Assembly (NCBI RefSeq): GCF_012910955.1
Contig: NZ_WTVQ01000051.1
Span: 1 to 32,893, forward strand
DNA length: 32,893 nucleotides
DNA from: Aromatoleum diolicum
Lineage (GTDB): Bacteria; Pseudomonadota; Gammaproteobacteria; Burkholderiales; Rhodocyclaceae
Direction: 5' to 3'
Of the stretch, positions 10,563-26,016 are shown one piece after another (position 1 is the stretch's first letter; every line of letters begins with the position of its first letter). The notes below the pieces were generated by a model. That model did not search any database, had not been told where the DNA came from, and worked only from the letters and a program-made list of their open reading frames with translations. A program made the translations under genes and the position numbers.

Positions 10563-10575
10563 CGCTCAGTACGCT

Positions 10576-11454
<879 letters not shown>

Positions 11455-11559
11455 TCACGGCCGCGGGGCCGCCAATTTTCAAGGGGTTTCGAACAGGGCG
11501 CAGACCTCGCCATGTCACGATTGGCACAATTCCCGCCAAACCCGACAAGCGCGCACCAT

Positions 11560-11629
11560 CCCGCAGAAGCGGCTTCAGCCGCGAACAATCCGGGGCACGA
11601 CGTTTCGCGGCTGAAGCCGCTCCCGCGGG
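11560..11629. repeat. REPIN-like pair of inverted extragenic palindromes
   Basis: AGCGGCTTCAGCCGCGA (11568-11584) and its exact reverse complement (11605-11621) face each other across 20 bases. Flanking CCCGC/GCGGG (11560-11564, 11625-11629) extends the symmetry with a few mismatches. Each arm is itself a hairpin (GCGGCT-TC-AGCCGC). The arm closely resembles the REP sequences of Pseudomonas and related genera, which are mobilised by RAYT transposases. Confidence 0.8.
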
Positions 11630-11742
11630 GCCAATCAAGCTCCGTGGCGTCGGTCACGTCCCGCCAGGTCTGCGCGGCCGGCGGCCAGGCGAGGCGTGAA
11701 CGCGGGCGGTGCCCGGTTCACGCTGCAGCGCAGGCAGGCTTT

Positions 11743-11760
11743 CCCGGGGGTCACCCCGGG
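11743..11760. terminator. GC-rich stem-loop after the OB-fold gene
   Basis: CCCGGGG (11743-11749) and CCCCGGG (11754-11760) form a seven-pair stem with a GTCA loop, starting nine bases beyond the stop of the minus-strand gene at 11770. No T-run follows on the minus strand, so it is a weak terminator candidate. Confidence 0.4.
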
Positions 11761-11769
11761 CGCTGCGGC

Positions 11770-12141
11770 TTACTTCTTGACGCTGATGCTGGCTTCTTCG
11801 ACCAGCAGCGGATACGTGTAGCCCGAACCGAAATCGCGGTCGAGCTTGACGAGGCCGGTGACGACGACCTGGTCGCCCACGGCCGCGGTGTCCTTGCTGG
11901 TGACGATCAGGTTGTTGCTGTTCTGGTCGCCGGAGCCGTCGCGCACGTGCACGAAGTTGCGCCCCATGATGCCGTTGTTGACCTTTGCGACCTTGCCTTC
12001 CACCTGCACCGATTTGCCGGCCAGTTCCGCCTTTTCCTGGTGCACGGCGGCGACGGTCTTGACTGCCGCATCGGCGGCAAACACCGCGGGCGCGCCCAGG
12101 CCGACCAGCCCGGCAAATACGAGAGCGAGAACTTTCTTCAC
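11770..12141 (-). CDS. Small periplasmic OB-fold protein (NrfJ-like/DNA-binding-protein-like)
   Basis: This is a 123-residue protein starting at a GTG (12141) with AGGAG seven bases ahead. The N-terminus KKVLALVFAGLVGLGAPAVFA is a signal peptide. The mature part contains GKSVQVEGKVAKVNNGIMGRNFVHVRDGSG and VGDQVVVTGLVKLDRDFGSGYTYPLLVEEA, a single OB-fold of the bacterial type often annotated as nucleic-acid-binding but exported, and found beside nitrite reductase genes as NrfJ. What it binds in the periplasm is unknown. It is on the same strand as the chemoreceptor upstream, separated by about 210 bases, and probably stands alone. Confidence 0.75.
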   Translation of the reverse strand: MKKVLALVFAGLVGLGAPAVFAADAAVKTVAAVHQEKAELAGKSVQVEGKVAKVNNGIMGRNFVHVRDGSGDQNSNNLIVTSKDTAAVGDQVVVTGLVKLDRDFGSGYTYPLLVEEASISVKK

Positions 12142-12325
12142 AAACAATCTCCTGCTATTGGGTCCGCTTGCGGACAAGTGAGCGATGAATGCAGCGCGGC
12201 CATTGTATACCGCCCGCGCGGCCGACGGCCCGCCGAAGCATGCTGCATGAATTGCGCGAGGAGCGAACGCACCCCGCGCAGGAGGCTGGCGGCAGTGCGG
12301 CCGGCCCACGGACGGGCCCGGCCGC

Positions 12326-12342
12326 GGCTCCATCGCGGAGCC
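12326..12342. terminator. Stem-loop after the chemoreceptor gene
   Basis: GGCTCC (12326-12331) and GGAGCC (12337-12342) pair around ATCGC, with further interrupted GC pairing outside. The structure begins about a dozen bases after the chemoreceptor stop on the minus strand. There is no T-tract. Confidence 0.4.
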
Positions 12343-12353
12343 GGCGCCCGGGT

Positions 12354-13961
12354 TCAGGCCAGGCGGAAGCGGTTCGCCGTGACCTGCAGTTGCCCGGCGA
12401 CGGCTTCGAGCTGGTGCGCCGCCGACGCCGTTTCCTTCACCGCGGCGCTGTTTTCCTCGCTCATCTGCGCGGTCTGCTCGACGCGCCGCGCGATCTCGTT
12501 GCTCGCCGTGGACTGTTCGTGCAGCGCGCTGGTGATGTCCTCGACCGCGGACATGACGTGACGCGACTGCTCGGTGAGCGAATTGATCGCACTGCCCGCC
12601 TCTTTCGACAGCGAGTCAACGCTGTCCATGTGCGCCACCACCTTCTCCATGCTGGCGACCGCGTCACGCGTGACGCCCTGGACCTGTCCGATCATCGCCG
12701 TGATTTCCTGCGTCGACTTGCCGGTGCGCTCGGCCAGCTTGCGCACTTCGTCGGCCACGACGGCGAAGCCGCGGCCCTGCTCGCCAGCGCGTGCGGCTTC
12801 GATCGCGGCATTCAGCGCGAGCAGGTTGGTCTGGTCGGCAATGTCGCGGATCACGGCGACGATCGACGAAATCTGGTCGGAGAAGCCGCCCAGCTGCCGG
12901 ATCTGCTCCGCCGTGCGCCCCACCGCCCCGGCGGTGATGCGGCCGTTGTCGACCATGCGCGTGACGATCGCATGGCCTTCGGCGGATTTCCGGCCGGATT
13001 CGGAGGCTGCGGAGCGCACCTCTTGCGCATGATCGGAAACCTGCGAAATGCTGACCGACATTTCCTCGACCGAAGCCGCCATCGACGAGGCGGCCTGCGC
13101 CTGCTGTTCGGTGGCATCGGACAATTGCGAGGTCGTCGCGGCGAGTTCTTCGCTCATCGAGCCGAGACCTTCGGCATGGTCCTGCAGGTGCTTGGCGATG
13201 TCGCGCAGACTGCGCTGCATCGCGTCACAGGATGTGAGCAGCTGGGCGAATTCGTCCTTGCCCGAGACATCGACCGCTTGCGACAGATCACCGGCTGCGA
13301 TGCGTCGCGTCACTTCCTGGGCCTTCGCGAGCGGCCCAAGGATCGAGCGCACGACGAATGCCGCATAGATCGCCAGCGCCGCCGCGGTGACCAGCGCGAT
13401 GATCGCCACTTCGAACAGGGTCTTCGAACGCATCTCGTCGAACGCCGTGTCGGCGTCGGTCGCCTCGCGTCCCATCGATACCGCAACCGTCGCAAGCTGA
13501 TCGCGGATGCCGCGCACCGCGGCGTCGGCCTCGTCGTCGATCGCGCGGATCTCGGCATTCACTTCATTCTCGCTATTCAGAATCGGCAGCAAACGCTTCT
13601 CGAACAGCACAATCATTGCCTCGACACCTTTTTTGGCCTCGGCAACCGCCCGCCGCTCGTCGGCGGTGTCCGCCTCGGTCGCGAGGCGATCCAGATCGGC
13701 CGTCGCCTCGCTGCGCAAGGCCGCGAAATCCTTCTTCGCCTCATCCAGATCGCGATTGATGATCGTATCGGCGAAGATCTGGTAGAACTGCGCCCCGAGC
13801 CAGGAGGCTTCGGCCGCGTGGGTCTGGGTCTGGGTCTTCACGAAGCCCTCGTCCTGCAGACCGGCGAGGTGACTCATCCGGTACAGGGCCATCCCCATCA
13901 GCGCGCTCAGCGTGACGAGCGCGATCGCAACCATGGCGAACAAACGGTATTTGACACTCAT
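12354..13961 (-). CDS. Methyl-accepting chemotaxis protein
   Basis: The 535-residue chemoreceptor starts [21 protein letters not shown], with TM1 at about 7-29. A helical periplasmic domain (about 30-185, four-helix-bundle type, rich in Ala, Glu and Lys) precedes TM2 (about 188-212, [20 protein letters not shown]). A HAMP domain follows (about 212-265), then the long cytoplasmic coiled coil. The highly conserved hairpin tip that contacts CheA and CheW is present: [26 protein letters not shown]-type sequence read in two parts, ending KSTQEI. There is no C-terminal CheR-tethering pentapeptide. Two adjacent ATG codons exist; the second (13961) has better spacing to AAGGGA. A sigma-28 promoter at 14042-14068 places it in the motility regulon. 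The ligand cannot be predicted. Confidence 0.93.
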
Positions 13962-14041
13962 CATGTATCCCTTGCTGTTAGCTAAGTTTGGCTGTCGCAG
14001 GCGAGCGCCCGTGCAACGTGAATCGATGCGTTCCGATAACC

Positions 14042-14068
14042 TTATCGTCCTCGCGGGATAAGACTTGA
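14042..14068 (-). promoter_or_regulatory. Sigma-28 (FliA) promoter of the chemoreceptor gene
   Basis: On the minus strand TCAAGTCT (14068-14061) is followed by exactly 11 bases and GACGATAA (14049-14042). The FliA consensus is TAAAGTTT-N11-GCCGATAA, so the -10 box has one mismatch and the spacer is ideal. It lies about 80 bases before the chemoreceptor start and points at it. Confidence 0.75.
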
Positions 14069-14148
14069 ATCTTTTTCGCGGCCGACTACCCGAATTGGGG
14101 CGTCCGCTTCCGGCACCAGCAGCAATGACCGTGCCCACGCTGCCCGCT

Positions 14149-14168
14149 TCATGATATTCGCATCATGA
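14149..14168. promoter_or_regulatory. Inverted repeat, possible operator
   Basis: TCATGAT (14149-14155) and ATCATGA (14162-14168) flank six bases in the divergent region. It differs from an FNR box, whose half-sites are TTGAT/ATCAA with a four-base spacer. The regulator is unknown. Confidence 0.35.
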
Positions 14169-14472
14169 CATTCTTTGCGATCCTTGGGGCAGTGCGCCCG
14201 CCGCGGTCCGCCCCACGACCAGAAAATCCGGGTCATCGCCCGTTCTCCGTGTCGGATCCCGGCATTCGGGCCCTGAAATCCATTGCCGCCCCACTCATGC
14301 ACCTGCGCACGAAACCGACACAGCGAGGTCGCGACGAGCGCCGCATCACCGGTCGCCGCCGCCGTCCGGCATCCCGCCCGCAGTCGCGGGCGTGCGAGCA
14401 CGTGCGACACGGATCACGGCGTACACGCCCGCGGTCGTGTAATCTTAAACATCTAGAAACAGAATCGCGGGT

Positions 14473-14485
14473 CGTCACGGTGACG
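14473..14485. promoter_or_regulatory. 13-base palindrome just upstream of the binding-protein operon
   Basis: CGTCACGGTGACG is perfectly symmetric around its central G and ends 30 bases before the first start codon. It could be an operator for the five-gene operon; chance is possible at this length in GC-rich DNA. Confidence 0.35.
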
Positions 14486-14515
14486 GCCTAGTCGATCGGC
14501 AGGGAGACAACAAGA

Positions 14516-15463
14516 ATGACCGATGTAACGAACGGCGTGGCGGCTGTCAGGCGGCTGCGGTCCGATGAGCATTGCGCGGGCGGGGATCCCGTTCGCCGTC
14601 GCGTCGTGCTCGGACTGCTGGCGACGCTCGGCCTGACGCTGGCCGAACAGTCGATTCCCGCCGCCCGGGCCGCCGACGCACCGCTGGTGATGGGGATCTT
14701 CCCGCGGCGTCAGGCGACGCTGACCACTGAACTCTACGCGCCGCTGGCCGCGTATCTCACCCGCGAGCTTGGCCGCGAGGTCCGGCTCGTCACCGCGAAG
14801 GATTTCGACGCGTTCTGGGACGGCGTCGAGCAGCGGCGCTTCGATATCGTCCACTACAACCAGTTCCACTACGTCCGCTCCGCCGACAAGTACCGCGTCA
14901 TTGCGCACAACGAGGAGTTCGGCACCGGTACCGTGGCCGGGGCGCTGTATGTCAGAAAGGACAGCGGCATCAACTCGATCGCGCAGCTGCGCGGGCGCAA
15001 GATCGTGTTCGGCGGTGGCACGGACGCGATGATGAGTTACATCCTGCCGAGCTACCTGCTGCTGCAGGCCGGCCTGCAACCCGCCGACTACGAGACCGTG
15101 TTCTCGAAGAATCCGCCGAATTCGCTGATTTCGCTGTATCACGGCCAAGCCGATGCGAGCGGAGCCGGCGACATCCTGATCGATCTGCCGGTCGTGCGCG
15201 ACGCGATGGACACCAGCACCGTCACGCACCTCGGCATGACCGAGCGGGTGCTGCACCTGCCCTGGGCGGTGCGCAAGGACATGCCCCAGGCGCTCGGCGC
15301 GCGCATCCAGACGCTGCTGGTGGGACTGCAGGCGCGCGAGGACGGCCGTGCGATTCTCGCCCGCGCGGAGATGACCGGCTTCGGCGCGGCGCGCGACGCC
15401 GACTACGATCCGCACCGCCGCATCATCCACAAGGTCATGCCGGCAATCGACATTCCGCGCTGA
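14516..15463 (+). CDS. PhnD-family periplasmic substrate-binding protein, first gene of a c-di-GMP/cytochrome/SulP operon
   Basis: The 315-residue protein has an extended N-terminus with arginines before a hydrophobic stretch (VRRRVVLGLLATLGL, about 26-40) and cleavage near AARA-ADA (about 51-55), compatible with Tat or Sec export. The mature part begins LVMGIFPRRQATLTTELYAPLAAYL, the usual opening of the phosphate/phosphite/phosphonate-binding (PhnD/PtxB/AioX) family. It continues with FDIVHYNQFHYV, GRKIVFGGGTDAMMSYILPSYLLLQAGL and the C-terminal VMPAIDIPR. No ABC permease or ATPase is adjacent. Instead a membrane GGDEF-EAL gene starts 15 bases downstream. PhnD-like proteins can serve as ligand receptors for membrane signalling proteins (AioX with the AioS kinase is the known case), so a receptor role is inferred. 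The ligand is unknown. GGGAG lies about ten bases ahead of the ATG. Confidence 0.85.
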   Translation: MTDVTNGVAAVRRLRSDEHCAGGDPVRRRVVLGLLATLGLTLAEQSIPAARAADAPLVMGIFPRRQATLTTELYAPLAAYLTRELGREVRLVTAKDFDAFWDGVEQRRFDIVHYNQFHYVRSADKYRVIAHNEEFGTGTVAGALYVRKDSGINSIAQLRGRKIVFGGGTDAMMSYILPSYLLLQAGLQPADYETVFSKNPPNSLISLYHGQADASGAGDILIDLPVVRDAMDTSTVTHLGMTERVLHLPWAVRKDMPQALGARIQTLLVGLQAREDGRAILARAEMTGFGAARDADYDPHRRIIHKVMPAIDIPR

Positions 15464-15478
15464 GTACGGAGAGCGCCG

Positions 15479-17551
15479 TTGCGCCTTGCGACCAAGTTCA
15501 TCCTGATCGTGGCCGGAATCCTGTCGGTCACGCTGGCACTGAACGCCTATTTCTTCCTGCACAGCCAGAACCGCATTCTGGAGCAGCAGCTCACCGAGCG
15601 CGGCCGTGTGCTGGGCCATCTGATCGCGCTGATCAGCCCCGAGGCGATCCTCGGGCTCGACTTTCTGACGCTCAACGAATACGCGCGAGAGGTCAGCCGG
15701 CAGCGTGACGTCGTCTATGGCGTGATTGTCGACAACGACGACAGGCCGCTGACGTCGTATGTGAATGGCAACGACCCGCTCATCCGTACCAGCCTCGGCG
15801 TGGACGGGCCGGCGCCGGACCATCTGCCGCCGCCCCGCCTGCAGACGCTGATACAGCAGCTCGCACACCTGCCCGACGTGATCCCGACCGAGTTTCCGAT
15901 CCTCCACGACGGGCGCCTGCTCGGCCGCCTGCGGGTCGGCATCAGCCGCGAGGTGCTGGCGACCCAGGCGCGCGAGCAGTTGGTGCAGCAGTTCGGCATC
16001 TATGCGGCGATCATCCTGTTCCTGAGCGCCGCGATCTATCTGGTGTTCAAGTACAGCGTGATGCGTCCGGTGCAGCGCCTGATGGAGGTCTCGCAGGATC
16101 TCGGCCGCGGAGAATTCACACTCATTCCGGTGACGTCCGGCGACGAACTCGGCCGACTCGGCGAAACCTTCAATGCGATGACCCACGCGATCCAGCGCGA
16201 ACAGGCGAAGCTGCACTATCAGGCCAATTACGACGCGCTGACGGCACAGCCGAACCGGATGCTGGCGGTCGAGCGACTGCAGCAGGAGATCCGCTCGGCG
16301 CACCGCCAGCAGCAGCGCTTCGCATTGATGTTCATTGATCTGGACGACTTCAAGATCGTCAACGACACGATGGGACACGCCGTCGGCGACCGGCTGCTGG
16401 CGCATGTCAGCACGCACATCCGCGCGCGCCTGCGCGACGAGGACACGCTGGCGCGCCTCGGCGGAGACGAGTTCCTGGTGCTGTTGCCGCGGATCGGTCA
16501 GGCCAGCGATGCGCGGGACGTCGCCGGCCGGTTGCTCGAGGCTGTCTCGGAACCGGTCGCCCTGGACGGGCGCGAAGTGGTCGTGCATTGCAGCATCGGC
16601 ATCGCGCTGTACCCGGAGGACGGCGAAACGGTGGAGGCGCTGATGGCCAATGCCGACAACGCGATGTACCAGGCGAAGAAGCCCGGGCGGACGCCGGTCT
16701 GTTTCTTCACCGCGGAGATGAACGCGCAGGTGCGCGAGCGCCTGCAGCTCGAACAGGATCTGAACAAGGTCCTCGCGCGCGGCGAGCTGCAGCTCGCGTT
16801 CCAGCCGATCTTCCGCGCCGACGACGGCGCCTACGTCGGTGCCGAGGCGCTGCTGCGCTGGCGCCATCCGGAACAGGGTTTCATCAGCCCGGCGACCTTC
16901 ATCCCGCTCGCGGAGAGCACCGGCCAGATCGTCGCGATCGGCGAATGGGTGCTGCGCGAGGCGGGCCGGCAGCTGCGCCGTTGGCTGGACGCGGGACTCG
17001 CCCCGGGCTATGTCGCGGTCAACCTCTCGCGCGTGCAACTGCGCGAGGACCTCGAGCAGCTGATCGGCGCCGTGCTCGACGACAATGCGCTGCCGCCGCA
17101 TGCGCTCGAGCTGGAGATCACCGAGAACATCCTGCTCGACGACCACCAGCAGATCAACGCGGTGCTGGGGCGGTTGCATGCACAGGGGTTGCGCTTCAGC
17201 CTCGACGACTTCGGCACCGGCTATTCGTCGCTCAGCTACCTGCGCCGCTTTTCGTTCGACACGTTGAAGATCGACCGCAGCTTCGTCGCGCCGTTGTGCG
17301 AGGACGCCGAAGCGGCCGCGCTGGTCCGCGCGATCGTCGCGATGGCGCATAGCCTTTCGCTGAAGGTCATCGCCGAGGGCGTCGAGACCCGCGCGCAGCT
17401 CGGATTTCTGCAGGGTTTGGGCTGCGACTATCTGCAGGGCTATCTGCTGTCGCGCCCGCTCGACACCGATCACTTCACCGCGTTCCTGACCCGGCTCGCG
17501 TGCGAATCGGCACCGTGGGGCGACTGCCCGCTCGCGCTCACCGATGGATAG
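15479..17551 (+). CDS. Membrane HAMP-GGDEF-EAL cyclic-di-GMP enzyme
   Basis: The 690-residue protein starts at TTG 15479 with GGAGAG six bases ahead. Layout: TM1 (about 7-28), periplasmic sensor region (about 29-175), TM2 (about 178-200), HAMP (about 198-250), GGDEF domain (about 250-415) and EAL domain (about 430-675). The diguanylate cyclase motif GGDEF is at 328-332, with an intact inhibitory RxxD site (RDED) five residues before it. The phosphodiesterase motif EAL is at 456-458, and NLSRVQL, LEITENIL, DDFGTGYSS, KIDRSF, EGVE and QGYLLSRPL supply the metal and catalytic residues. Both activities look competent, so the balance is probably set from the periplasm, perhaps by the upstream binding protein. 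This resembles the NspS-MbaA arrangement, in which a periplasmic binding protein controls a GGDEF-EAL partner. Its stop overlaps the next gene by eight bases. Confidence 0.92.
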   Translation: MRLATKFILIVAGILSVTLALNAYFFLHSQNRILEQQLTERGRVLGHLIALISPEAILGLDFLTLNEYAREVSRQRDVVYGVIVDNDDRPLTSYVNGNDPLIRTSLGVDGPAPDHLPPPRLQTLIQQLAHLPDVIPTEFPILHDGRLLGRLRVGISREVLATQAREQLVQQFGIYAAIILFLSAAIYLVFKYSVMRPVQRLMEVSQDLGRGEFTLIPVTSGDELGRLGETFNAMTHAIQREQAKLHYQANYDALTAQPNRMLAVERLQQEIRSAHRQQQRFALMFIDLDDFKIVNDTMGHAVGDRLLAHVSTHIRARLRDEDTLARLGGDEFLVLLPRIGQASDARDVAGRLLEAVSEPVALDGREVVVHCSIGIALYPEDGETVEALMANADNAMYQAKKPGRTPVCFFTAEMNAQVRERLQLEQDLNKVLARGELQLAFQPIFRADDGAYVGAEALLRWRHPEQGFISPATFIPLAESTGQIVAIGEWVLREAGRQLRRWLDAGLAPGYVAVNLSRVQLREDLEQLIGAVLDDNALPPHALELEITENILLDDHQQINAVLGRLHAQGLRFSLDDFGTGYSSLSYLRRFSFDTLKIDRSFVAPLCEDAEAAALVRAIVAMAHSLSLKVIAEGVETRAQLGFLQGLGCDYLQGYLLSRPLDTDHFTAFLTRLACESAPWGDCPLALTDG

Positions 17552-18122
17552 GCTCCCGGACGCCGCCCTCGCCGCCGTGCATGACCGGCGGCGCGCCGCG
17601 CGGCAGGCTCGCCGCATCGTCTTGCTGCGCGGCGCGCTCGCCGCCGGGCTCGTGATCGGTTTCGCGCTGTGGGCGCATTTCGGTTCGGGCCGTCCCGGAT
17701 TCTCACCGCGCGTGAGCCCCGAGCCCGGCTGGGGTGCGTTTCGCGCCGCGTACGGCGTCGACACGTTCGGCCACGACGGCTACTTCGTGCGTGCGGTGCA
17801 GAACGGCTACAACCTCGTGCACCACACGCACAAGTATGCGTGGCGCTTCACGCGCAAGGGCGCGCTCGACCGTCCGAATGCGTGCATCGATTGCCACAGC
17901 GCCGAGTCGCTGGCGTACGCGTTCGCAACCGGCGACCGCTTCGAGGCGCGGCTCGACCGGCGCGTGTCCTTCGAGGAGCGCGTGATACGCTGCTACGCCG
18001 GGCACCTCGACGGCTTCATCCCGACGATCTACGATCCGGCAGTGCGCGACATCCGCATCTTTGCGCGCATGGTCGCCCACCATCTGCAACTCGGCGAGGG
18101 CGCACCGGAGCGTGCGCCGTGA
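17544..18122 (+). CDS. Membrane-anchored monoheme c-type cytochrome
   Basis: The 192-residue product has a basic N-terminus, one uncleaved-type transmembrane helix (about 25-46, IVLLRGALAAGLVIGFALWAHF) and a periplasmic domain with a single CxxCH heme site, CIDCH at 114-118. A second Cys...His (CYAGH) does not have heme-binding spacing. His-rich VHHTHKY (about 92-98) precedes the heme site. It is not a class I cytochrome I can name. The pairing of this monoheme protein with the downstream diheme one recalls the SoxX-SoxA and TsdB-TsdA pairs, so it may pass electrons between the diheme enzyme and the respiratory chain; this is inference. The ATG overlaps the GGDEF-EAL stop, and the stop overlaps the next gene's GTG (GTGA). 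Confidence 0.82.
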   Translation: MDRLPDAALAAVHDRRRAARQARRIVLLRGALAAGLVIGFALWAHFGSGRPGFSPRVSPEPGWGAFRAAYGVDTFGHDGYFVRAVQNGYNLVHHTHKYAWRFTRKGALDRPNACIDCHSAESLAYAFATGDRFEARLDRRVSFEERVIRCYAGHLDGFIPTIYDPAVRDIRIFARMVAHHLQLGEGAPERAP

Positions 18123-19216
18123 AACCGCTCGCTCCAGGGTGGAAAAAGGCCGCGCGACTCGCGCTGCTGGTCGGCGTACTGCTTGGGCTGTACGCCGTCG
18201 CGGTCGCGCGCCACGACGAACGCGCACGGATCCGGCAGCAGCCGGTGCGGCTGACCCCGGGCTGCGCCGAAAAACTCTCGCGCTACGGCCTCGAGGCCGG
18301 TCGCCACTACGTCTCGCCGTACGCGCTCGCACGCACCGGGCAGGCGGGCGTCCGGCAGGGCTACAGCGACGAGGACGTGCGCGCGATCCAGCGCGGCTGC
18401 AACATCATCGACGACCTGCAGGGGCAGCAGGCGGCGGACCCCGCGCGCGAACGCTGGAACGCGGCCCGCTTCGTGCGCGGCACGCATACCAGCTGCGACC
18501 ACTGCCACCAGGGCATCGGCGACAAGCAGACGGCCGCCGGCGAGCCGCAGTCCGGTTCACTGAGCCTCGCCGCGTCGTGGGTCATGGCCGACATGTACGA
18601 CCAGTTCACCGGCATCCTGTTGCCCTACGAGCTGCGCCAGATGCAGTGCTACATCAACTCGTCGAACGGCTACAAGCCGAACGTCGCCGACGACCTGATC
18701 CGCGACGTCACCGCGTACAGCCGCTTCCTCGCCGCGGCGCTCGACCTGCGCTTCGGCAACCGCTATGCGGAACAGGGGATCGACGAGGTGACCGCGTCGT
18801 CGACGCTCAAACGCGGCGACGACTATGTGCGCGGCGCCGCGCTGTTCCAGGAAAAGTGCGCGCGCTGCCACGGCCCGCAAGGACTCGGCACGGTCGTCGA
18901 CGGCCGCGTGCTGTTCCCGGCGGTGGCCGGTCCGAACGCCTTCAACCTGCAGTCGCGCAACAACTTCTCGTTCGTCTCGACGATCCTGCCGGGTTTCATC
19001 TGCCGCAACATGCCGCCCGGCGAGGAAGGCACGCTGAGCAGTCAGGACTGCCGCGACATCGGCTTCTACATCAGCAACCTGCCGCGGCCGGCCGGCGACA
19101 AGCAGGGGCCGCTCGCGGCACTGTGGCAGCAGCTGATGATGCGCGTGATGCCGACGCTGGTCCGCAGCGTCGAGGCCTGGCAGCGGCCGCAGGAATCGGG
19201 AAGAGCCGGAACATGA
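18119..19216 (+). CDS. Diheme cytochrome c, TsdA (thiosulfate dehydrogenase)-like
   Basis: The 365-residue protein starts at a GTG in a four-base overlap with the previous stop. It has an N-terminal membrane anchor or signal (about 10-29) and two heme sites: CDHCH (126-130) and CARCH (247-251). The first domain has the TsdA/SoxA-like feature RQMQCYINSSNGYKP (about 173-187), matching the 'R..QC....NG..P' pattern after heme 1. The second domain reads RGAALFQEKCARCHGPQGLG ... FICRNMPPGEEGTLSSQDCRDIGFYI, the usual cytochrome c fold whose NMP Met is the expected axial ligand. Five further cysteines (about 49, 94, 177, and in FICRN and SQDC) lie outside the heme sites. TsdA joins two thiosulfates to tetrathionate in the periplasm; substrate here is inferred, not shown. 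The next gene is a SulP anion transporter. Confidence 0.8.
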   Translation: MKPLAPGWKKAARLALLVGVLLGLYAVAVARHDERARIRQQPVRLTPGCAEKLSRYGLEAGRHYVSPYALARTGQAGVRQGYSDEDVRAIQRGCNIIDDLQGQQAADPARERWNAARFVRGTHTSCDHCHQGIGDKQTAAGEPQSGSLSLAASWVMADMYDQFTGILLPYELRQMQCYINSSNGYKPNVADDLIRDVTAYSRFLAAALDLRFGNRYAEQGIDEVTASSTLKRGDDYVRGAALFQEKCARCHGPQGLGTVVDGRVLFPAVAGPNAFNLQSRNNFSFVSTILPGFICRNMPPGEEGTLSSQDCRDIGFYISNLPRPAGDKQGPLAALWQQLMMRVMPTLVRSVEAWQRPQESGRAGT

Positions 19217-20793
19217 AGAGCGCCGCGCTGACCTGGATGGCGCCGCGCGCAGGGGCCTTCGGCAACGAGGTGCTGATCGGGCTGACGCTCGCGATCGTCG
19301 TGCTGCCGCAGGCGATCGCGTTCTCGACGACGCTCGCCGGGCTGCCGTCGTATTTCGGCCTGTACTGCGCGACCTGGGGCGTGCTGTTCACCGCGCTGCT
19401 GAACCCCTCGCGGGTGTTCCACGGCGGCCCGAACAGCACGCTGTCGGCGGTCGTCGGCGTGACCCTGCTGCCGGTCGCGCCACAGTTCGGGGCCGACTAC
19501 ATCGGCTACGCGCTGACACTGTTCCTGCTCGCCGGGCTGATCCAGCTCGTGTTCCTCGCCGTCCCGCCGCTCGGCCGCATCCTCGACTTCGTCAGCGAGC
19601 CGGTCGCCAACGGCATGATCTGCGGCATCGGCCTGTACATGGTGTTCAAGTCGTTCCCGGCGTTCGCCGGCCTGCCGATCAACACACAGGTCGAATGGCG
19701 GCTGTGGATCGCCTGGCAGAGCTTTCTGGCGATGCTCGAGATTGGCAACATGCACGCGATCCATATCGGCCTGATCACGCTGCTGGTCACCGTCGTGCTG
19801 CGCCAGTTCGAGGCTTTCCGCAATTGGGCGATCCTGCTCGGCATCGTCACCGGCACGCTGTATTCGGAGTTCCTCAACGCGCGCCTGGGCCTCGCCGAGA
19901 CGCTGATCGAACAGACCGCGAACGTCTCCGCGACCGGCTTCGTGTATCCGTCGCTGCCGCTGTTTGCGCAGGAGGCGATGCCCGACATCATCAGCATCAT
20001 CCCCGGCGCGGTCACGCTCGCGCTGCTGGGCCTGTTCCAGACGGTCGCGGCGATGCGGCGCATGAACCGCAAGAGCGGCCAGTTCGTCGACGCCCGCCAC
20101 GGCATTTTCGCCGACGCTCTGAGCAACTGCGTGCTGCCCTTCCTGTCGGCGCTGCCGACCTGCGCGTCGTTCAACCGCATGTCGCTGATGCACGCGATGC
20201 ACACCGGCAGCCGGCTCGCCGCGGTGTCGTCGGCGCTGATCCTGCTCGCGCTGGTGAGCTTCTTCGGCGAGTACATCGCGATCATCCCGGTGCCGGCGAT
20301 GGCCGCGATCATCATGGTGGTCGGCGCCAACATGATCGACTGGGCGGACATCAAGGCGCACTTCCAGCACCGCCCCGAGGCGATCGTGTTCAGCGCGTCG
20401 TTCCTGTCGGTGCATGTCTTCGGCCTGTTCGGCGCGGTGATCTGCGGTTCGCTGCTGGCGCTGGCGTACGCGAAGTGGGAGAAAGCGCACCCCAACGTCA
20501 CCCTCGAACGCAACGTGCTGCGCATCCGCGGCAACATCTACTACGGTTCGCTGCCGGTCATCGAGTCGCTGTACCACCGCGCCAACAGCGACAAGCGGTA
20601 CGCCGAGCTGATCGTCGACTTCTCCGCCGTCCATCACATCGACCCGGAAGGCATCCGCTGGCTCGCCGAGATCGGCAAGAACGGCAAGGTTCGTTTCGCC
20701 GACCGGCGCAGCGGGCAGGACCGGCGCACCGGCTCCGCCGATCGGCCTGCCGAGCGCAAGCGCAAGGACAGGCGCCGCCGGCAGACGCTGTAA
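19213..20793 (+). CDS. SulP-family inorganic anion transporter with STAS domain
   Basis: The 526-residue carrier has 10-12 membrane helices and the SulP signature in the first helices: PQAIAFSTTLAGLPSYFGLY (about 32-51), then FHGGPNSTLSAVVG. The C-terminal cytoplasmic STAS domain (about 425-500) contains IVDFSAVHHIDPEGIRWLAEIG, followed by an unusually basic tail of about 30 residues (DRRSGQDRR, KRKDRRRRQ). Family members move sulfate, bicarbonate, or other oxyanions. The ATG overlaps the diheme cytochrome stop by four bases, so it is the fifth gene of the coupled operon. The pairing with a TsdA-like enzyme points to a sulfur oxyanion, but bicarbonate or another anion is not excluded. Confidence 0.9.
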   Translation: MKSAALTWMAPRAGAFGNEVLIGLTLAIVVLPQAIAFSTTLAGLPSYFGLYCATWGVLFTALLNPSRVFHGGPNSTLSAVVGVTLLPVAPQFGADYIGYALTLFLLAGLIQLVFLAVPPLGRILDFVSEPVANGMICGIGLYMVFKSFPAFAGLPINTQVEWRLWIAWQSFLAMLEIGNMHAIHIGLITLLVTVVLRQFEAFRNWAILLGIVTGTLYSEFLNARLGLAETLIEQTANVSATGFVYPSLPLFAQEAMPDIISIIPGAVTLALLGLFQTVAAMRRMNRKSGQFVDARHGIFADALSNCVLPFLSALPTCASFNRMSLMHAMHTGSRLAAVSSALILLALVSFFGEYIAIIPVPAMAAIIMVVGANMIDWADIKAHFQHRPEAIVFSASFLSVHVFGLFGAVICGSLLALAYAKWEKAHPNVTLERNVLRIRGNIYYGSLPVIESLYHRANSDKRYAELIVDFSAVHHIDPEGIRWLAEIGKNGKVRFADRRSGQDRRTGSADRPAERKRKDRRRRQTL

Positions 20794-20875
20794 CCGCCGC
20801 GGCCGGCATACGCCCGCCGCCACGGCGCCGCGCTGCGGGTTAACATGCCGGTCGTCAGGACTCCCGGCGCTCACG

Positions 20876-22513
20876 ATGGCACGCATACACCCCGAAGGAT
20901 GGCGTCAGATTCCCGCCAGCGGTGCGCTGGCGCGCGAACTCGAGACGCTGGCAACGCTCGCCGAAAGCTTGCCCGACGACCACGCGGTGTATCACGGCAT
21001 CCACTGGACGCGGATCAATCGCGACCATGCGCTGTTCGGCGAGATCGACTTCATCGTCGTCGGCCCGAGCGGCAAGCTGCTGCTGATCGAACAGAAATCC
21101 GGTTTCCTCGACGAAACGCCGGACGGCCTGGTCAAGACCTACGCGAAGGCGAAGAAGAACGTCAGCGTGCAGATGGCGCGCAGTGCCGATCACCTGCGCG
21201 AGCGCCTGACCGTCTTCCTGAAGGGCCATGCGGCCAGGCTCGACACCCTGCTCTACTGCCCCGACTACACCGTGCGCCAGCCCGGCAGCGCCGGCCTCGA
21301 CCCGGCACGCATCGTCGATGCCAGCCGCCGCGAACATCTCGCCGCGATCGTGCAGAGCCTGTTGCGCGACGAGGTGCGCGACCGCGTCGTGCTGGACAAC
21401 ATCGAGCGTTTCCTCGCCGACCAGCTGGAGCTGGTGCCGGAAGTGAATGCCATCGTCGGCCAGGCCGAGGCGCTGTACACGCGACTCGCCGGCGGACTGG
21501 CCGAATGGGCGCGGCGCATCGAGATGACGCCGTTCCGCCTGCGCGTCACCGGCACCGCCGGCAGCGGCAAGACACAACTGGCGATGGCGGTGCTGCGCGA
21601 TGCGCTCAAGGCTGGGCGCCGACCGCTATACGTCTGCTACAACCGCCCGCTCGCCGACCACATCGCGCTGATCGCGCCACCCGGCGGCGAAGTCGCGACC
21701 TATCACCAGTTGTGCGACCGTGTGTTGCGCGCGCACGGCGAGATCCCGGATTTCTCGCGGCCGGATGCCTTCGCGCGGCTTGAAGCGGCATTCCGCGAAC
21801 TCGATCCCGGCGATGCGTGGCGTTTCGACGAGCTGATCGTCGATGAAGGCCAGGATTTCCGCGAAGAATGGCGCGACGCGCTGCTGCGCCTGCTAAGGCC
21901 CGACGGTCGCGCGTGGTGGCTGGAAGACCCGTTGCAGAATCTCTACGGCCGGCCCGAGGTCGCGCTGCCGGGCTGGGTGCGCATCACCAGCGAACGCAAC
22001 TACCGCAGCCCGGGCGACATCGTCGCGGCGCTGAACCGCATGCTGCCGCTGGCGCAGCCGCTCGAGGCGGGCAGCCCGCTCACGGGTTCCGACGTCGAGA
22101 TCCTGAGGTGGAAGGATGCGACGGAGCTGATCGATCAGACCAAGCGCGCGATGACCCGCGCGATCGGCCTCGGATTCCGCCGCGAGATGATCGCGACGAT
22201 CACCTTCCGCGGTCGCGAGCATTCGCTGTTCACGCCCTTCGACCACCTCGGCCCGCACCGGCTCAAGGCCTTCACCGGCACCTACGACCTGCTCGGCAAT
22301 CCGGTGTATACGGACGGCGACTTCCTGATCGACTCGGTCTACCGCTTCAAGGGCCAGGCCGCGCCCTGCGTGATCTTCACCGAGATCGATTTCGCCCAGC
22401 TCGACCCGCTGACGGTGCGCAAACTCTTCGTCGGCGCAACGCGTGCGGGCATGAAGCTGATCCTGGTGGTGTCGGAACAGGCGGCACGCCTGCTCGCGGA
22501 CTCTGTCGATTAG
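20876..22513 (+). CDS. NERD nuclease-domain and SF1 (UvrD-type) helicase-like ATPase protein
   Basis: The 545-residue protein has an N-terminal NERD domain (about 15-130) with the nuclease-like core GEIDFIVV (about 55-62) and IEQKSG (about 71-76), the D-x(n)-(E/Q)xK arrangement of restriction-type nucleases. A superfamily-1 ATPase follows: Walker A GTAGSGKT (about 226-233), a QLCDR-type helical motif, Walker B VDEGQD (about 322-327), an arginine motif in SERNYRSPGDI, and C-terminal RKLFVGATRAGMKL (about 512-525) like UvrD motif VI. NERD-helicase proteins are generally assumed to act in DNA repair or defence; its substrate is unknown. It begins 83 bases after the SulP stop. Its stop (TAG, 22511-22513) overlaps the stop of convergent proQ. 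Confidence 0.85.
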   Translation: MARIHPEGWRQIPASGALARELETLATLAESLPDDHAVYHGIHWTRINRDHALFGEIDFIVVGPSGKLLLIEQKSGFLDETPDGLVKTYAKAKKNVSVQMARSADHLRERLTVFLKGHAARLDTLLYCPDYTVRQPGSAGLDPARIVDASRREHLAAIVQSLLRDEVRDRVVLDNIERFLADQLELVPEVNAIVGQAEALYTRLAGGLAEWARRIEMTPFRLRVTGTAGSGKTQLAMAVLRDALKAGRRPLYVCYNRPLADHIALIAPPGGEVATYHQLCDRVLRAHGEIPDFSRPDAFARLEAAFRELDPGDAWRFDELIVDEGQDFREEWRDALLRLLRPDGRAWWLEDPLQNLYGRPEVALPGWVRITSERNYRSPGDIVAALNRMLPLAQPLEAGSPLTGSDVEILRWKDATELIDQTKRAMTRAIGLGFRREMIATITFRGREHSLFTPFDHLGPHRLKAFTGTYDLLGNPVYTDGDFLIDSVYRFKGQAAPCVIFTEIDFAQLDPLTVRKLFVGATRAGMKLILVVSEQAARLLADSVD

Positions 22514-23058
22514 CCCTTGGAGAACTTGCCGAGCAGCTGCTGCAGCTTCTCGGCCTTGCGGCGTTCGGCTTCTTCGGCCTCGCGCTTGGCCTTTTCGGCG
22601 TCGAGCACGGCCTTCTTGCGCTTGGCGGCTTCGGCGAAGCGGTCCTTCAGCGTCTGCCTGGCGTGGGCGCGCTGTTCCTCAGTGACTTCGCCGTCTTCCT
22701 TGCCGTCGAGGTCGAAGCGCGCGGTAGCCTTTTCCATCGCCTTCATGTAGCGCGTCGAGGCGGTGTGCATGCGCATCGCGCTGCGGATCACCTTGCGGTC
22801 GAGTTCGGGGAAGCGCTCGGCGATGGCCTTGTCGATGCGCAGCGCCAGCGGCCTGACCTCGCGGAAGGTCGGCGAGGCTTCCTGCAAGATCTGCAGCAGG
22901 CCGCGCGCGTCGATCTGCGACTTGCCTGCAGCCGGCTCGCCGGGCTGCTGGTCGGCTTCGGCAGTTTGCGATTCGGCGGTTTGTGATTCGGCTTGCTGCT
23001 CAAGCTGCTCGTCGACTGGCGGGTCGAGCTGCTCTTCGGAATGGATGTCGGTATTCAT
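22510..23058 (-). CDS. proQ: ProQ/FinO-family RNA chaperone
   Basis: The 182-residue protein has an acidic, Gln-rich N-terminus (about 1-45, with the direct repeat ESQTAESQTAE), a FinO/ProQ RNA-binding domain (about 50-130) and a charged coiled-coil tail (about 135-178, KREAEEAERRKAEKLQ). The domain signature is LALRIDKAIAERFPELDRKVIRSAMRMHTASTRYMKAM in two halves: helix LALRID and RSAMRMHTASTRYMKAM, the basic concave face that binds the 3' end and terminator hairpin of small RNAs and mRNAs. It should act as a global RNA chaperone in the cytoplasm. The ATG at 23058 is chosen since the upstream in-frame residues are not conserved-looking. No Shine-Dalgarno sequence is evident. The gene converges on the NERD helicase gene with overlapping stops. 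Confidence 0.88.
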   Translation of the reverse strand: MNTDIHSEEQLDPPVDEQLEQQAESQTAESQTAEADQQPGEPAAGKSQIDARGLLQILQEASPTFREVRPLALRIDKAIAERFPELDRKVIRSAMRMHTASTRYMKAMEKATARFDLDGKEDGEVTEEQRAHARQTLKDRFAEAAKRKKAVLDAEKAKREAEEAERRKAEKLQQLLGKFSKG

Positions 23059-23111
23059 TGAAGGAACGGGCGTGGGCGACGGACGGAATTTTGCATGATC
23101 GCATGAAATGC

Positions 23112-23148
23112 CGGGTGATAACCGCAGTTGCCCCGCGGCGATCACCCG
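23112..23148. terminator. Stem-loop between fdsA and proQ
   Basis: CGGGTGAT (23112-23119) pairs with ATCACCCG (23141-23148); inside, after a 2x2 internal loop, CCGC pairs with GCGG. The structure starts three bases past the fdsA stop on the minus strand and is followed by CATTTCATG. It probably ends the fds transcript or attenuates read-through into proQ. Confidence 0.45.
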
Positions 23149-23151
23149 CTT

Positions 23152-26016
23152 TCAGATTTCGATGGCAGTTTCCGCTGCCAGCCGCACCGCGCAGTACTTG
23201 AATTCCGGTATCTTGCCGAAGGGGTCGAGCGCCGGTTGCGTGAGCAGGTTCGCCGCGGCCTCGACGTAGCAGAATGGCATGAACACCGAGCCACGCTGCA
23301 TCGCGCGGTCGGCGCGGGCTTCGAGCACGATCGCGCCACGGCGGGTTTCCAGCGTCACGCGCGCGCCGGAGGCGATGCCGTGCGCGGCGAGGTCGTCGGG
23401 ATGGACCGTACACCACGGCTGCGGTTCGAGCGCGTCGAGGACGTTGGCGCGGCGCGTCATCGAGCCGGTGTGCCAGTGTTCGAGCACGCGGCCGGTGGTG
23501 AGCACCAGCGGGTAAGCGGTGTCGGGCAGCTCCGCGGCCGGCAGCGGGGCGACGGCGACGAAGCGGGCGCGACCGCTGGCGGTGGGGAAATCCTGCTCGA
23601 ACAGCACCGGCCACGACGGGCCGTCTTCGGTGAATTTCGGCGCGACGACGGCCCCTTCCGCTTCCAGTTGCTGCCACGTGATGCCGGCGTAGCTCGGCAA
23701 TGCCTGACGCAGCTCGTCGAAGATCTCGGCCGGGCCGGCGTAATCCCACGCGAGGCCCAGGCGCTGCGCGATCTGCTGGATGATCCACCAGTCGGCGCGC
23801 GTGTCGCCGGGCAGCGGCAGCACCGGCTGCGTGAGCTGCACGAGGCGGTCGGTGTTGGTGAAGCTGCCGGTCTTCTCCATCAGGCTGGACGCCGGCAGGA
23901 TCACGTCGGCGAGCATCGCCGTCTCGGTGAGGAAGAGGTCCTGCACGACGAGGTGCTCGAGCCCGCCGAGCGCGGCGCGGGCGTGCGCGAGGTCGGGGTC
24001 GGACATCGCAGGGTTTTCGCCCTCGATGTACATGCCGCGGATCTGGCCGGCGAGCGCGGCGTCCATGATCTCGACGACGGTGAGGCCGGGCACGTCGGAC
24101 AGGGGCGTGTCCCACAGCGACTCGAACTTCGCGCGGATCGCGGGATCGGCGACGCGCTGGTAGTCGGGGAACATCATCGGGATGAGGCCGGCGTCGGACG
24201 CCCCCTGCACGTTGTTCTGGCCGCGCAGCGGATGCAGGCCGGTGCCGCGGCGGCCGATCTGGCCGGTCATCAGCGCGAGCGCGATCAGGCAGCGCGAGTT
24301 GTCGGTGCCGTGGATGTGCTGCGAGATGCCCATGCCCCAGAAGATCATGCTGTTGGGGCCCTGCGCATACAGGCGCGCGACTTCGCGCACGGTCTCGGCC
24401 GGGATGCCGGTGATCGCCTCGACGCGCTCGGGCGGGAACGCGAGCGCCGCGGCGCGGAAGGCGTCGAAGCCGTCGGTGCGCGCGGCGATGAAGGCCTCGT
24501 CGGTGAGCCCCTCCTCGATGATCACGCAGGCGAGCGACAGCAGCAGCGTGACGTCGGCGTCGGGGCGGAACTGCAGGTAGCGGTGCGCGTGGCGTGCGAG
24601 CGGGGTTTCGCGCGGGTCCATCAGGATCAGCTTGGCGCCCCGTTCGACAGCGTTCTTCATGAAGGACGCGGCGACCGGATGGTTCGCCGCCGGGTTGGCG
24701 CCGATGACGATCATGACGTCGGCGAATTCGACGTCGCGCACCGGGTTCGACACCGCGCCGGAGCCGATGCCTTCGAGGAGTGCGGCGACCGAAGAGGCAT
24801 GGCACAGGCGCGTGCAGTGGTCCACGTTGTGCGTGCCGAAGCCCGTGCGGACGAGCTTCTGGAAGAGATAGGCCTCCTCGTTGCTGCCCTTGGCCGAGCC
24901 GAAGCCGGCGAGCGCGTGCGGGCCGTGCTGGCCCTTGATGCGCGCGAGGCCGGCGGCGGCGGCATCGAGCGCCTCTTCCCAGCTCGCTTCGCGGAAGGCG
25001 GCGAGCGGGTTCGCGGGGTCGAGATCGACCGATTTCGGGATGCCCGGTCGGCGGATCAGCGGCGTCGTCAGCCGGTGCGCGTGGCGCGGGTAGCCGAAGC
25101 CGTAGCGCCCTTTCACGCACAGGCGGCCGGCGTTGGCGGGGCCGTCGCGGCCGTCGACGTGGATGATCTTCGCCTGCGGGCCGTCGCCGGCGACGTGGTA
25201 GGTCGTCTGGCAGCCGACGCCGCAGTAGGGGCACAGCGAGTCGATGGCGCGGGTCGCGGGTATGGCGGGCGCTTCGGCCGGCGTCGCAGTTGCGGGAATG
25301 GGAGCAGGTGCCGGTGCGAGCGCGGGCTGTTCGGCGAAGGCGCCACGTACCGCGACCGGTTCGGAGACGGTCTGGCCCAGCAGATCGGCGAGCGCCGCGG
25401 GCAGCAGCGCGCCGGTCGGGCAGGCCTGCACGCATTCGCCGCAACCGACGCAGGAGGACGTGCCCATCGGATCATTGAAATCGAACACGATCGCGGTGTC
25501 GGCGCCGCGCTGCGCGAGGCCGATGACGTCGTTGACCTGCACTTCGCGGCAGGCGCGCAGGCAGCGCGTGCACTGGATGCAGGCGGCGAGGTTCACGGCG
25601 ATGCCGGGGTGGCTGCGGTCGGGTGCGGGTTGATCGCGCGGGGCGAAGCGCGATTCGGTAACGCCGAGTTCCTCGCACCAGTGCGCGAGTTCGGAATCGG
25701 GTTTTTCGGCCGCGGCCGGTACGTCGGCGCGCAGCAGTTCCAGCACCATGCGCTGCGAGGCGCGGGCGCGCTCGCTCTCGGCCTTGACCTTCATGCCGGC
25801 CTTCGGCGCGCGGCAGCACGAGGGCGCGAGCACGCGCTCGCCGTCGATCTCGACGACGCAGGCGCGGCAGTTGCCGTCGGCACGCAGGCCGTCGGTGTAG
25901 CACAGGTGCGGAATGTCGGTGCCGGCGCGGCGCGCCGCCTGCAGGATCGATTCGCCGGGCGCGGCGTCGATCTCGCGACCGTCGAGTTCGAAGCGGATCA
26001 TATCGGCGGCGTTCAT
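23152..26016 (-). CDS. fdsA: NAD-dependent formate dehydrogenase, molybdopterin subunit FdsA
   Basis: The 954-residue subunit starts at ATG 26016, with GAGGAGGG eight bases ahead and a four-base overlap (ATGA) with the fdsB stop. N-terminal NuoG-like [2Fe-2S] domain: CYTDGLRADGNCRACVVE plus SCC (about 39-72). Two ferredoxin [4Fe-4S] motifs follow, CIQCTRCLRAC (about 144-154) and CVGCGECVQACP. Then comes the FdhF-type catalytic region: CPYCGVGCQ...GRLCVKG cluster and molybdenum ligand Cys in DHCTRLCHASSV (Cys, not selenocysteine). The C-terminal molybdopterin-binding domain includes VLTTGRVLEHWHTGSMTRR. It oxidises formate to CO2 in the cytoplasm, passing electrons through its clusters to the diaphorase subunit. 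The usual accessory genes fdsC (fdhD) and fdsD do not follow it; proQ does. Confidence 0.93.
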   Translation of the reverse strand: MNAADMIRFELDGREIDAAPGESILQAARRAGTDIPHLCYTDGLRADGNCRACVVEIDGERVLAPSCCRAPKAGMKVKAESERARASQRMVLELLRADVPAAAEKPDSELAHWCEELGVTESRFAPRDQPAPDRSHPGIAVNLAACIQCTRCLRACREVQVNDVIGLAQRGADTAIVFDFNDPMGTSSCVGCGECVQACPTGALLPAALADLLGQTVSEPVAVRGAFAEQPALAPAPAPIPATATPAEAPAIPATRAIDSLCPYCGVGCQTTYHVAGDGPQAKIIHVDGRDGPANAGRLCVKGRYGFGYPRHAHRLTTPLIRRPGIPKSVDLDPANPLAAFREASWEEALDAAAAGLARIKGQHGPHALAGFGSAKGSNEEAYLFQKLVRTGFGTHNVDHCTRLCHASSVAALLEGIGSGAVSNPVRDVEFADVMIVIGANPAANHPVAASFMKNAVERGAKLILMDPRETPLARHAHRYLQFRPDADVTLLLSLACVIIEEGLTDEAFIAARTDGFDAFRAAALAFPPERVEAITGIPAETVREVARLYAQGPNSMIFWGMGISQHIHGTDNSRCLIALALMTGQIGRRGTGLHPLRGQNNVQGASDAGLIPMMFPDYQRVADPAIRAKFESLWDTPLSDVPGLTVVEIMDAALAGQIRGMYIEGENPAMSDPDLAHARAALGGLEHLVVQDLFLTETAMLADVILPASSLMEKTGSFTNTDRLVQLTQPVLPLPGDTRADWWIIQQIAQRLGLAWDYAGPAEIFDELRQALPSYAGITWQQLEAEGAVVAPKFTEDGPSWPVLFEQDFPTASGRARFVAVAPLPAAELPDTAYPLVLTTGRVLEHWHTGSMTRRANVLDALEPQPWCTVHPDDLAAHGIASGARVTLETRRGAIVLEARADRAMQRGSVFMPFCYVEAAANLLTQPALDPFGKIPEFKYCAVRLAAETAIEI

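Follow-up and report, generated by a model that had tools for sequence, protein, structure and literature searches.

The bacterium Aromatoleum diolicum carries a cassette of five genes in which a signalling module is joined to a module for redox chemistry and transport. The cassette lies on the + strand at positions 14516-20793 of contig NZ_WTVQ01000051.1, the whole 32,893 nucleotides of which are referred to here as the window, in a genome of 5.1 Mb and 146 contigs. It encodes, in order, a PhnD-type periplasmic receptor, a membrane GGDEF-EAL enzyme of cyclic di-GMP (c-di-GMP) metabolism, a small monoheme c-type cytochrome (c1), a diheme cytochrome resembling TsdA, and a SulP-family anion carrier. 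The five genes almost certainly form a real conserved unit and they share one history, and the signalling module can be absent. Judged from the sequences, the chemistry of the cassette is somewhat more probably that of a sulfur oxyanion than of anything else; the complete model, which couples an oxyanion receptor-transducer to a TsdA-like redox pair and a SulP carrier, has about an even chance of being correct.

An earlier sequence-only reading of the window had described five co-directional genes with a 15-base gap followed by overlaps of 8, 4 and 4 bases, and the reading frames confirm this, all five standing where they had been placed. The gap separates the stop codon of the receptor gene from the TTG start of the GGDEF-EAL gene; at locus L017 the latter starts with GTG at the same spacing. 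When the start closest to the preceding stop is chosen, which biases toward tight spacing, the distance in relatives from c1 to the TsdA-like gene lies between -11 and +10 bases at 33 of the 34 loci measured, and that from the TsdA-like gene to SulP is -14 to +39 bases in 36 of 36. The 585 bases at L040 arise because its alignment starts ahead of the gene, and L036 was not measured. Upstream, a presumed promoter region of 377 bases (14139-14515) lies between the cassette and a divergent gene for a methyl-accepting chemotaxis protein (MCP). No sigma-70-like site was found in this region, and a promoter and terminator scan did no better than shuffled sequences.

Conservation of the cassette is evident within the order and beyond it. 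Among 300 genomes surveyed in the order, 13 have the small cytochrome, one of them being the window's. The other 12 all keep the five genes close together in a short stretch, arranged as GGDEF-EAL, PhnD, c1, TsdA-like, SulP. When the TsdA-like alignment was used to scan 84,980 species genomes, 37 loci emerged, some of which may lie in genomes already found in the search of the order. All five genes occur at 27 of these loci, counting three (L026, L030 and L044) at which the GGDEF-EAL gene runs past the contig end. Six gammaproteobacterial loci (L029, L038, L040, L041, L045 and L048) hold only c1, the TsdA-like gene and SulP, with neither receptor nor GGDEF-EAL gene, and four (L025, L033, L051 and L053) are cut by contig ends; the triplet of two cytochromes and SulP is missing from none of the 37 loci with enough contig. 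The arrangement is thus not peculiar to this genome, a possibility that the sequence-only reading had put forward as fatal to its proposal. The co-occurrence that it expected from a neighbourhood search is borne out, but the order of the PhnD and GGDEF-EAL genes varies between clades. By the diheme protein, the nearest relatives are Azoarcus sp. Aa7 and Aromatoleum species, with 88% identity in the best segment, and within the genus the small cytochrome is present in 7 of 17 genomes, the window's own included. A profile of this cytochrome found only the window's own strong match and one weak match in a phylum sample of 398 genomes, and a plasmid search with the protein gave no match. Flanking genes vary between genera, as judged by eye at 13 loci. 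Furthermore, all ten pairwise protein distance matrices are correlated (r 0.67-0.93) across 23 genomes with full-length copies, and none of 999 permutations reached correlations as high.

Some copies depart from this pattern in detail. Single in-frame stops interrupt the GGDEF-EAL gene of L027 (5919) and the PhnD gene of L036 (8131), and at L038 (10418-11927) SulP is seemingly split into two frames; these may be sequencing errors or decaying copies. L026 and L036 are records of metagenome-assembled genomes (MAGs) titled Bordetella parapertussis that group with betaproteobacterial MAGs, and the titles look like mislabels. Two betaproteobacterial MAGs have tandem PhnD receptor genes in the cassette (L035 3605-5523 and L042 6791-8622), perhaps serving two ligands through one transducer. 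L034 (12195-13556) and L035 (9191-10558) have a further, distantly related SulP gene (23-25% identity) downstream on the other strand, and a different PhnD-like gene, recognised by eye, lies upstream on the opposite strand at the triplet-only locus L041 (7089-8003).

The history of the cassette appears to include transfer. In a tree of the TsdA-like protein (36 rows, 34 of them labelled, with the root placed by choice on the triplet-only group), three groups match gene content and order, namely those without the signalling pair, those with PhnD first and those with GGDEF-EAL first, and two changes suffice to explain them. In an unrooted tree of all five proteins from 23 genomes, the betaproteobacterial Aromatoleum group sits with Marinobacterium and Motiliproteus (Oceanospirillaceae), apart from a group of Burkholderiales and betaproteobacterial MAGs. 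A tree uniting Aromatoleum with the latter group is rejected by the approximately unbiased (AU) test (p = 0.00026), the grouping having already been seen before the test was made. Since the Aromatoleum copies group with those of Oceanospirillaceae, the cassette was probably transferred whole, and movement of the entire cassette between distant bacteria is the simplest reading of these sequences. A more local change is also apparent. A chemoreceptor gene and a small OB-fold-like gene (the latter assigned by eye) precede the cassette in the window (11770-14138) and are found downstream of SulP in L017-L020 (Aromatoleum/Azoarcus), and their position on opposite sides points to a change of place by a gene block.

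The diheme cytochrome (365 aa, GTG start; 18119-19216, + strand) is the part of the cassette most readily assigned. A phmmer search matched TsdA structures, the best being 4wqc at an expectation value (E) of 4.7e-21, and equivalences were read from this alignment for TsdA residues described in PMC4423706 and PMC5146829. In all 36 sequences there are two CxxCH heme motifs, and the active-site heme ligand Cys123 and Arg119 of TsdA correspond to C177 and R173. Ser127, which PMC4423706 describes as an invariant residue of TsdA that SoxA lacks, corresponds to S181 in 35 of 36 sequences, with one Ala. The Met ligand of heme 2 (M298) is likewise kept in 36 of 36 and is preceded by Asn (Asn297), as in the Asn-Met pair reported for Campylobacter TsdA (PMC5146829). 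In its two c-type hemes, Cys ligand and Arg119, Ser127 and heme-2 Met equivalents, the protein resembles TsdA and TsdBA of Allochromatium, Campylobacter and Marichromatium; structure matches and kept residues together uphold the description of it as TsdA-like. Unlike those enzymes, it has a membrane anchor at its N terminus (judged by eye), a constant partner cytochrome and SulP, and four further invariant cysteines (49, 94, 295 and 311), none of which is found in the Allochromatium enzyme. Of the two cytochromes, only this second one is diheme; the heme count of the 192-aa protein had to be corrected to a single CxxCH.

That smaller cytochrome (17544-18122, + strand) is matched by no family of Pfam (E 0.001) or NCBIfam (E 0.01), and membership in a family of either collection was rejected at these thresholds. 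It has an N-terminal membrane anchor (by eye) and, in 35 of 35 sequences, an invariant CxxCH (114-118) and an invariant candidate ligand, Cys150; another residue, R140, is also invariant. Direct searches gave little: phmmer against the PDB returned a chance match only, and the profile of the protein reached SoxA at E 0.029, behind an unrelated chance match. Because these direct matches are weak, the assignment rests on three other comparisons. The profile matches the catalytic half of the neighbouring diheme protein in its own genome (E 1.1e-8); hhalign aligns CxxCH with CxxCH and Cys150 with Cys177 of the diheme protein (probability 98.6); and an AlphaFold2 (AF2) model (predicted local distance difference test score, pLDDT, 90; predicted template modelling score, pTM, 0.73) has TsdA, TsdBA or SoxA structures as its first 13 Foldseek matches in the PDB, the best at E 8.5e-4, probability 1.00 and template modelling (TM) score 0.50. 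By this profile and model evidence, the small cytochrome, with its one heme, consists of a single domain homologous to the catalytic domain of TsdA and SoxA. Like SoxA of SoxAX, it has the fold of a Cys-ligated catalytic domain, and SoxA is among those 13 matches with weak E values; unlike SoxA, it has one heme domain and its equivalent of Arg119 is not invariant. Among the five cassette genes there is no SoxX, SoxYZ or SoxB, and no search aimed at SoxX or SoxYZ was made.

The last gene (526 aa; 19213-20793, + strand) encodes a carrier with a Sulfate_transp domain (PF00916, E 8.3e-44) that matches SLC26/SulP structures at E 8.5e-20 and weaker. Its STAS domain is partial, residues 435-489 covering only positions 12-66 of the 106 of PF01740, and its C-terminal tail is charged. 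As cut by the alignment, 30 of 37 sequences of this SulP family have 507-533 residues. SulP proteins transport many different anions.

At the other end of the cassette, the receptor (315 aa; 14516-15463, + strand) has what looks by eye like a Tat signal around residues 27-53 and has no cysteine in its mature part, none occurring after residue 20. Its PhnD fold is evident from PF12974 (E 6.7e-49), from an AF2 model (pLDDT 85, pTM 0.77) and from Foldseek, which placed PtxB best (6e-23), followed by ArrX, PhnD, XAC2383 and AioX. Where PhnD and PtxB have the phosphonate motif S-T-S, the receptor has D-A-M, invariant in 27 aligned cassette receptors. The cassette has no ABC permease or ATPase gene, and within 9000-26000 of the window, read gene by gene, only modABC was seen (modB and modC by eye). 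An orphan ABC receptor was rejected, as there are no ABC genes in the cassette and relatives of the receptor adjoin signalling partners. An arsenic receptor of the AioX type was also rejected, as there is no equivalent of the pocket residue Cys106 and no mature cysteine.

The GGDEF-EAL enzyme (690 aa; 15479-17551, + strand) is built from a transmembrane (TM) segment, a periplasmic sCache-like sensor region (about 29-170), a second TM segment, a HAMP domain, a GGDEF domain (E 1.7e-49) with an RxxD I-site, and an EAL domain (E 3.3e-72); TM segments were placed by eye, and the sensor region matches sCache_3_2 at E 8.8e-4, below the curated cut-off. An alignment of 25 copies, which includes the window's and omits those that are truncated or interrupted, retains GGDEF, the Arg and Asp of the I-site, and, in the EAL domain, the Glu and DDFG; in 21 of the copies the triplet that names this domain is EVL. 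The catalytic motifs of both c-di-GMP domains are thus retained, in line with the earlier reading that both activities are intact.

Adjacency of receptor and transducer extends beyond the cassette. The PhnD subfamily occurs in 21 of 369 genomes of the class (the window's own and 20 others), at 26 loci outside the window. At 20 of the 26, the adjoining gene encodes a membrane protein with a domain homologous to the periplasmic one of the window's GGDEF-EAL enzyme (E at most 1e-11). The outputs of these proteins, assigned by simple motifs or, for four without a clear motif, by Pfam, are GGDEF (7), kinase (6), chemoreceptor (5) and unassigned (2). At L100, L102 and L110 another membrane sensor lies alongside the receptor (one GGDEF protein by Pfam, two by eye), and at the remaining three no membrane sensor was found in the stretch examined. 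None of the 26 stretches, of 2.3 to 3.8 kb each, contains cytochromes. In the window itself, the MCP lacks the receptor-linked sensor domain, and only the GGDEF-EAL protein matched it among the window's frames. Two of the triplet-only genomes have such pairs elsewhere, one with PhnD and GGDEF-EAL, the other with PhnD and a chemoreceptor as well as PhnD and a kinase. The adjacency is therefore conserved at the 27 cassette loci and at 20 of the 26 others. Because its relatives adjoin membrane transducers rather than ABC genes, a role in signalling is the best reading of the receptor, in agreement with the earlier description of a binding protein without an ABC partner, and it likely pairs with a membrane transducer.

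The wider receptor group has features of its own. Most members at L093-L118 and L089-L091 share the motif FGG[GD]xxAMxSY, and with the shared sCache-like domain they look like an unnamed receptor family. The window's genome also encodes a TtrS-like kinase with a PhnD domain (L065, G000 C146:7500-9137; E 4e-84, under the curated cut-off), which is a candidate for a further oxyanion sensor, and a single long open frame (L073, G000 C113:12491-13237) with a PhnD domain and PAS-like and GGDEF-like stretches (by eye), perhaps a one-protein receptor-cyclase.

These parts can be assembled into a model. In the periplasm, the receptor would bind a small oxyanion, probably one of the thiosulfate/polythionate class, and dock on the sCache-like domain of the GGDEF-EAL enzyme; the pairing itself is supported by conserved linkage and by homologous pairs with other outputs. 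Docking would change the amount of c-di-GMP made or destroyed in the cytoplasm, in one direction or the other. The two membrane-anchored cytochromes of the TsdA/SoxA superfamily would carry out sulfur-sulfur redox chemistry of the thiosulfate/tetrathionate type, with a presumptive substrate and direction, and hand electrons to the respiratory chain, and SulP would transport the related anion through the inner membrane. These parts would be linked most economically if the anion that is sensed were a substrate or product of the adjacent cytochromes, in which case the presence of a sulfur oxyanion would set c-di-GMP and hence attachment, motility or enzyme activity. A sulfur oxyanion is favoured because the TsdA residues are kept, the STS motif is lost, PhnD-domain kinases for thiosulfate and tetrathionate are published, c-di-GMP is reported to activate TsdA in Erythrobacter flavus, and the receptor subfamily is associated with SoxB, which is found in 18 of its 21 genomes versus 131 of the 348 genomes without it (p 1.5e-5, or 3e-5 to 3e-4 when counted by genus, with no correction for kinship), the negative ones being the window's own, G728 and G941. 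That the genes have been retained and moved jointly suggests a link between the sensing, chemistry and transport of a single compound. More tentatively, and with less confidence than the model itself, the locus may be a transferable sulfur sense-and-act cassette, with a receptor for the anion made or consumed by the Cys-heme pair, a GGDEF-EAL output and a dedicated SulP; its receptor would come from a wider, apparently undescribed family through which the same sulfur signal is wired to biofilm, transcription or taxis. The sequence-only reading had recognised that the genes form a unit, but missed both the apparent TsdA/SoxA homology of the small cytochrome and the separability of the receptor module.

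Several observations weigh against this model. In the diheme protein, Arg109 of TsdA is replaced by Phe in 35 of 36 sequences and by Val in one, while Arg224 is replaced by Phe and Gly221 by Arg in all 36. At position 109 of TsdA, Arg or Lys is described as a thiosulfate contact, and the protein is named TsdA-like, not TsdA, because this residue is replaced; an Arg stands one position before the site in 30 of 36 sequences and a Gln in six, the window's among them. The fold match of the small cytochrome is modest, with one match below E 0.001 and SoxA matches at E 0.1 to 1.9. Its equivalent of Arg119, a residue said to be invariant across TsdA and SoxA, is Arg in 27 of 35 sequences (window included), Ser in four, His in two and Lys in two. 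The protein is therefore classed as a superfamily homologue and not as SoxA, its part in catalysis is uncertain, and from its sequence it may be non-catalytic. The best sequence and fold matches of the receptor are to phosphite-binding PtxB, and the likeness of D-A-M to TtrS-like kinases is loose: six such kinases, all below the curated family cut-off, have DAF, NAF, HAL, NAF, EGF and ESL, and outside the cassette only AM is shared. The association with SoxB follows lineages, and it is seen with the receptor subfamily but not with the cassette. SoxB is present in 10 of 27 hosts of the full cassette and in none of 7 carriers in the genus, compared with 149 of 369 genomes in the class, and in 5 of 6 triplet-only hosts; the count of full-cassette hosts does not support SoxB as a partner of the cassette. 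This lack of enrichment fits an alternative to the Sox system and the absence of any thiosulfate link equally well. Moreover, the cassette has no PilZ gene, and among the six genomes whose triplet has no receptor beside it, four lack a strong match to the receptor elsewhere as well (best E 2e-15 to 9e-27).

Alternatives to the proposed chemistry are each unlikely. One is tetrathionate respiration in place of thiosulfate oxidation, in which the receptor senses tetrathionate, for which TtrS is a precedent, and the cytochrome pair is a tetrathionate reductase. The invariant heme-2 Asn-Met is shared with Campylobacter TsdA, an enzyme reported to be biased toward tetrathionate reduction (PMC5146829). 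However, TsdA enzymes are reported to work in both directions (PMC6879331), and the heme-2 residue alone gives no direction, since in the account of the Campylobacter enzyme Asn254Lys is not adapted to thiosulfate oxidation and Asn254Gly moves further toward reduction (PMC5146829). It is no more likely that ligand and substrate lie outside the sulfur oxyanions, in the phosphite, selenite, arsenite or bicarbonate class, with the cytochromes repurposed. The closest solved receptors do bind phosphite or methylphosphonate, the diheme protein has lost Arg109 and Arg224 and gained four invariant cysteines, and the breadth of SulP cargo leaves room for other anions. Yet an invariant D-A-M stands where PhnD and PtxB have the STS anion motif, a mature cysteine such as AioX needs is lacking, and the equivalents of Cys123, Arg119 and Ser127 are kept.

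The output and the unity of the cassette can also be questioned. c-di-GMP might be a local switch and not a lifestyle output, with the GGDEF-EAL enzyme tuning a cytochrome or SulP in the same membrane patch; this is improbable, slightly more so than either chemical alternative. The receptor-transducer pair is the sole regulator within the cassette, and c-di-GMP with a PilZ protein is reported to activate TsdA in Erythrobacter flavus (PMC12172448), but a Pfam scan of the other cassette proteins found neither PilZ nor another known c-di-GMP-binding domain, and the six triplet loci have no local sensor genes, two of their genomes having receptor pairs elsewhere. That the genes are mere neighbours under a shared promoter, with no joint function, is very improbable. 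Overlapping genes are common in bacteria, but these genes have stayed together across beta- and gammaproteobacteria despite changing flanks, a change of order preserved their adjacency, their distances are congruent and they were probably transferred as a unit. A chance neighbourhood was rejected on the 12 of 12 genomes of the order, the survey of 37 loci and the distance correlations.

Each part of the cassette has a precedent: TsdA, SoxA, NspS-MbaA, XAC2383-XAC2382, TtrS/ThsS, AioX and c-di-GMP control of TsdA. No description of the five-gene combination was found in the literature searched, subscription journals lying largely outside it, and to that extent the statement that no described system couples all the parts holds. 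The precedents cited in the sequence-only reading stand, but it missed the closer XAC2383-XAC2382 and the link between c-di-GMP and TsdA in Erythrobacter flavus. NspS-MbaA is described as a polyamine receptor in which a solute-binding protein works with a membrane GGDEF-EAL protein. The cassette pair has the same composition, with a binding protein of another family and a presumably different ligand. To our knowledge, no redox or transport genes are attached to NspS-MbaA. In Xanthomonas citri, XAC2383-XAC2382 is reported to combine a PhnD-like receptor with a diguanylate cyclase (cited in PMC10380989). The cassette likewise pairs a PhnD-fold receptor with a c-di-GMP enzyme, and 5ub3 and 5ub7 are fold matches at 19-20% identity; unlike its GGDEF-EAL protein, XAC2382 bears the title of diguanylate cyclase, and neither cytochromes nor SulP are known from that system.

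TtrS and ThsS are reported as PhnD-domain kinases for tetrathionate and thiosulfate, with this type of sensor domain beside sulfur-oxyanion redox genes (PMC5408782). TtrS-like kinases, like the cassette receptor, lack STS at the anion motif; in TtrS/ThsS, the receptor domain is fused to a histidine kinase and the output is transcription, whereas the cassette receptor is a separate protein. AioX and ArrX, whose partner is a kinase, are likewise PhnD-fold periplasmic receptors acting in signalling. Their described role is in arsenic signalling, and AioX uses Cys106 (PMC5908839), which the cassette receptor lacks. Finally, in Erythrobacter flavus 21-3, c-di-GMP is reported to activate TsdA through the PilZ protein mPilZ-1753 (PMC12172448). 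This pathway also ties c-di-GMP to thiosulfate dehydrogenase, but it uses light sensors and a PilZ protein, and the sections of the account drawn on describe no receptor-cytochrome-SulP cassette (PMC12172448).

If the model is correct, bacteria without a Sox system would have a portable means to sense and act on a sulfur oxyanion and to adjust c-di-GMP, and the cassette would be a direct test case for control of c-di-GMP by a redox substrate. The locus also adds a TsdA/SoxA-type cytochrome pair whose small member falls outside Pfam and NCBIfam families. A ligand found for one member of the receptor group would aid annotation of kinases, chemoreceptors and c-di-GMP enzymes jointly.

Several neighbouring genes lie outside the cassette. 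The small OB-fold-like protein encoded within 11770-14138 of the window appears by eye to be secreted. Downstream of the cassette, a gene for a NERD-domain and UvrD-like helicase (20876-22513), also found near the cassette in L017-L020, adjoins a ProQ-family gene on the - strand (22510-23145). The region is flanked by modABC-like genes and a gene for the alpha subunit of formate dehydrogenase (8761-11445 and 23152-26220), and in Motiliproteus (L028) a formate-dehydrogenase-like operon, recognised by eye, lies upstream of the cassette.

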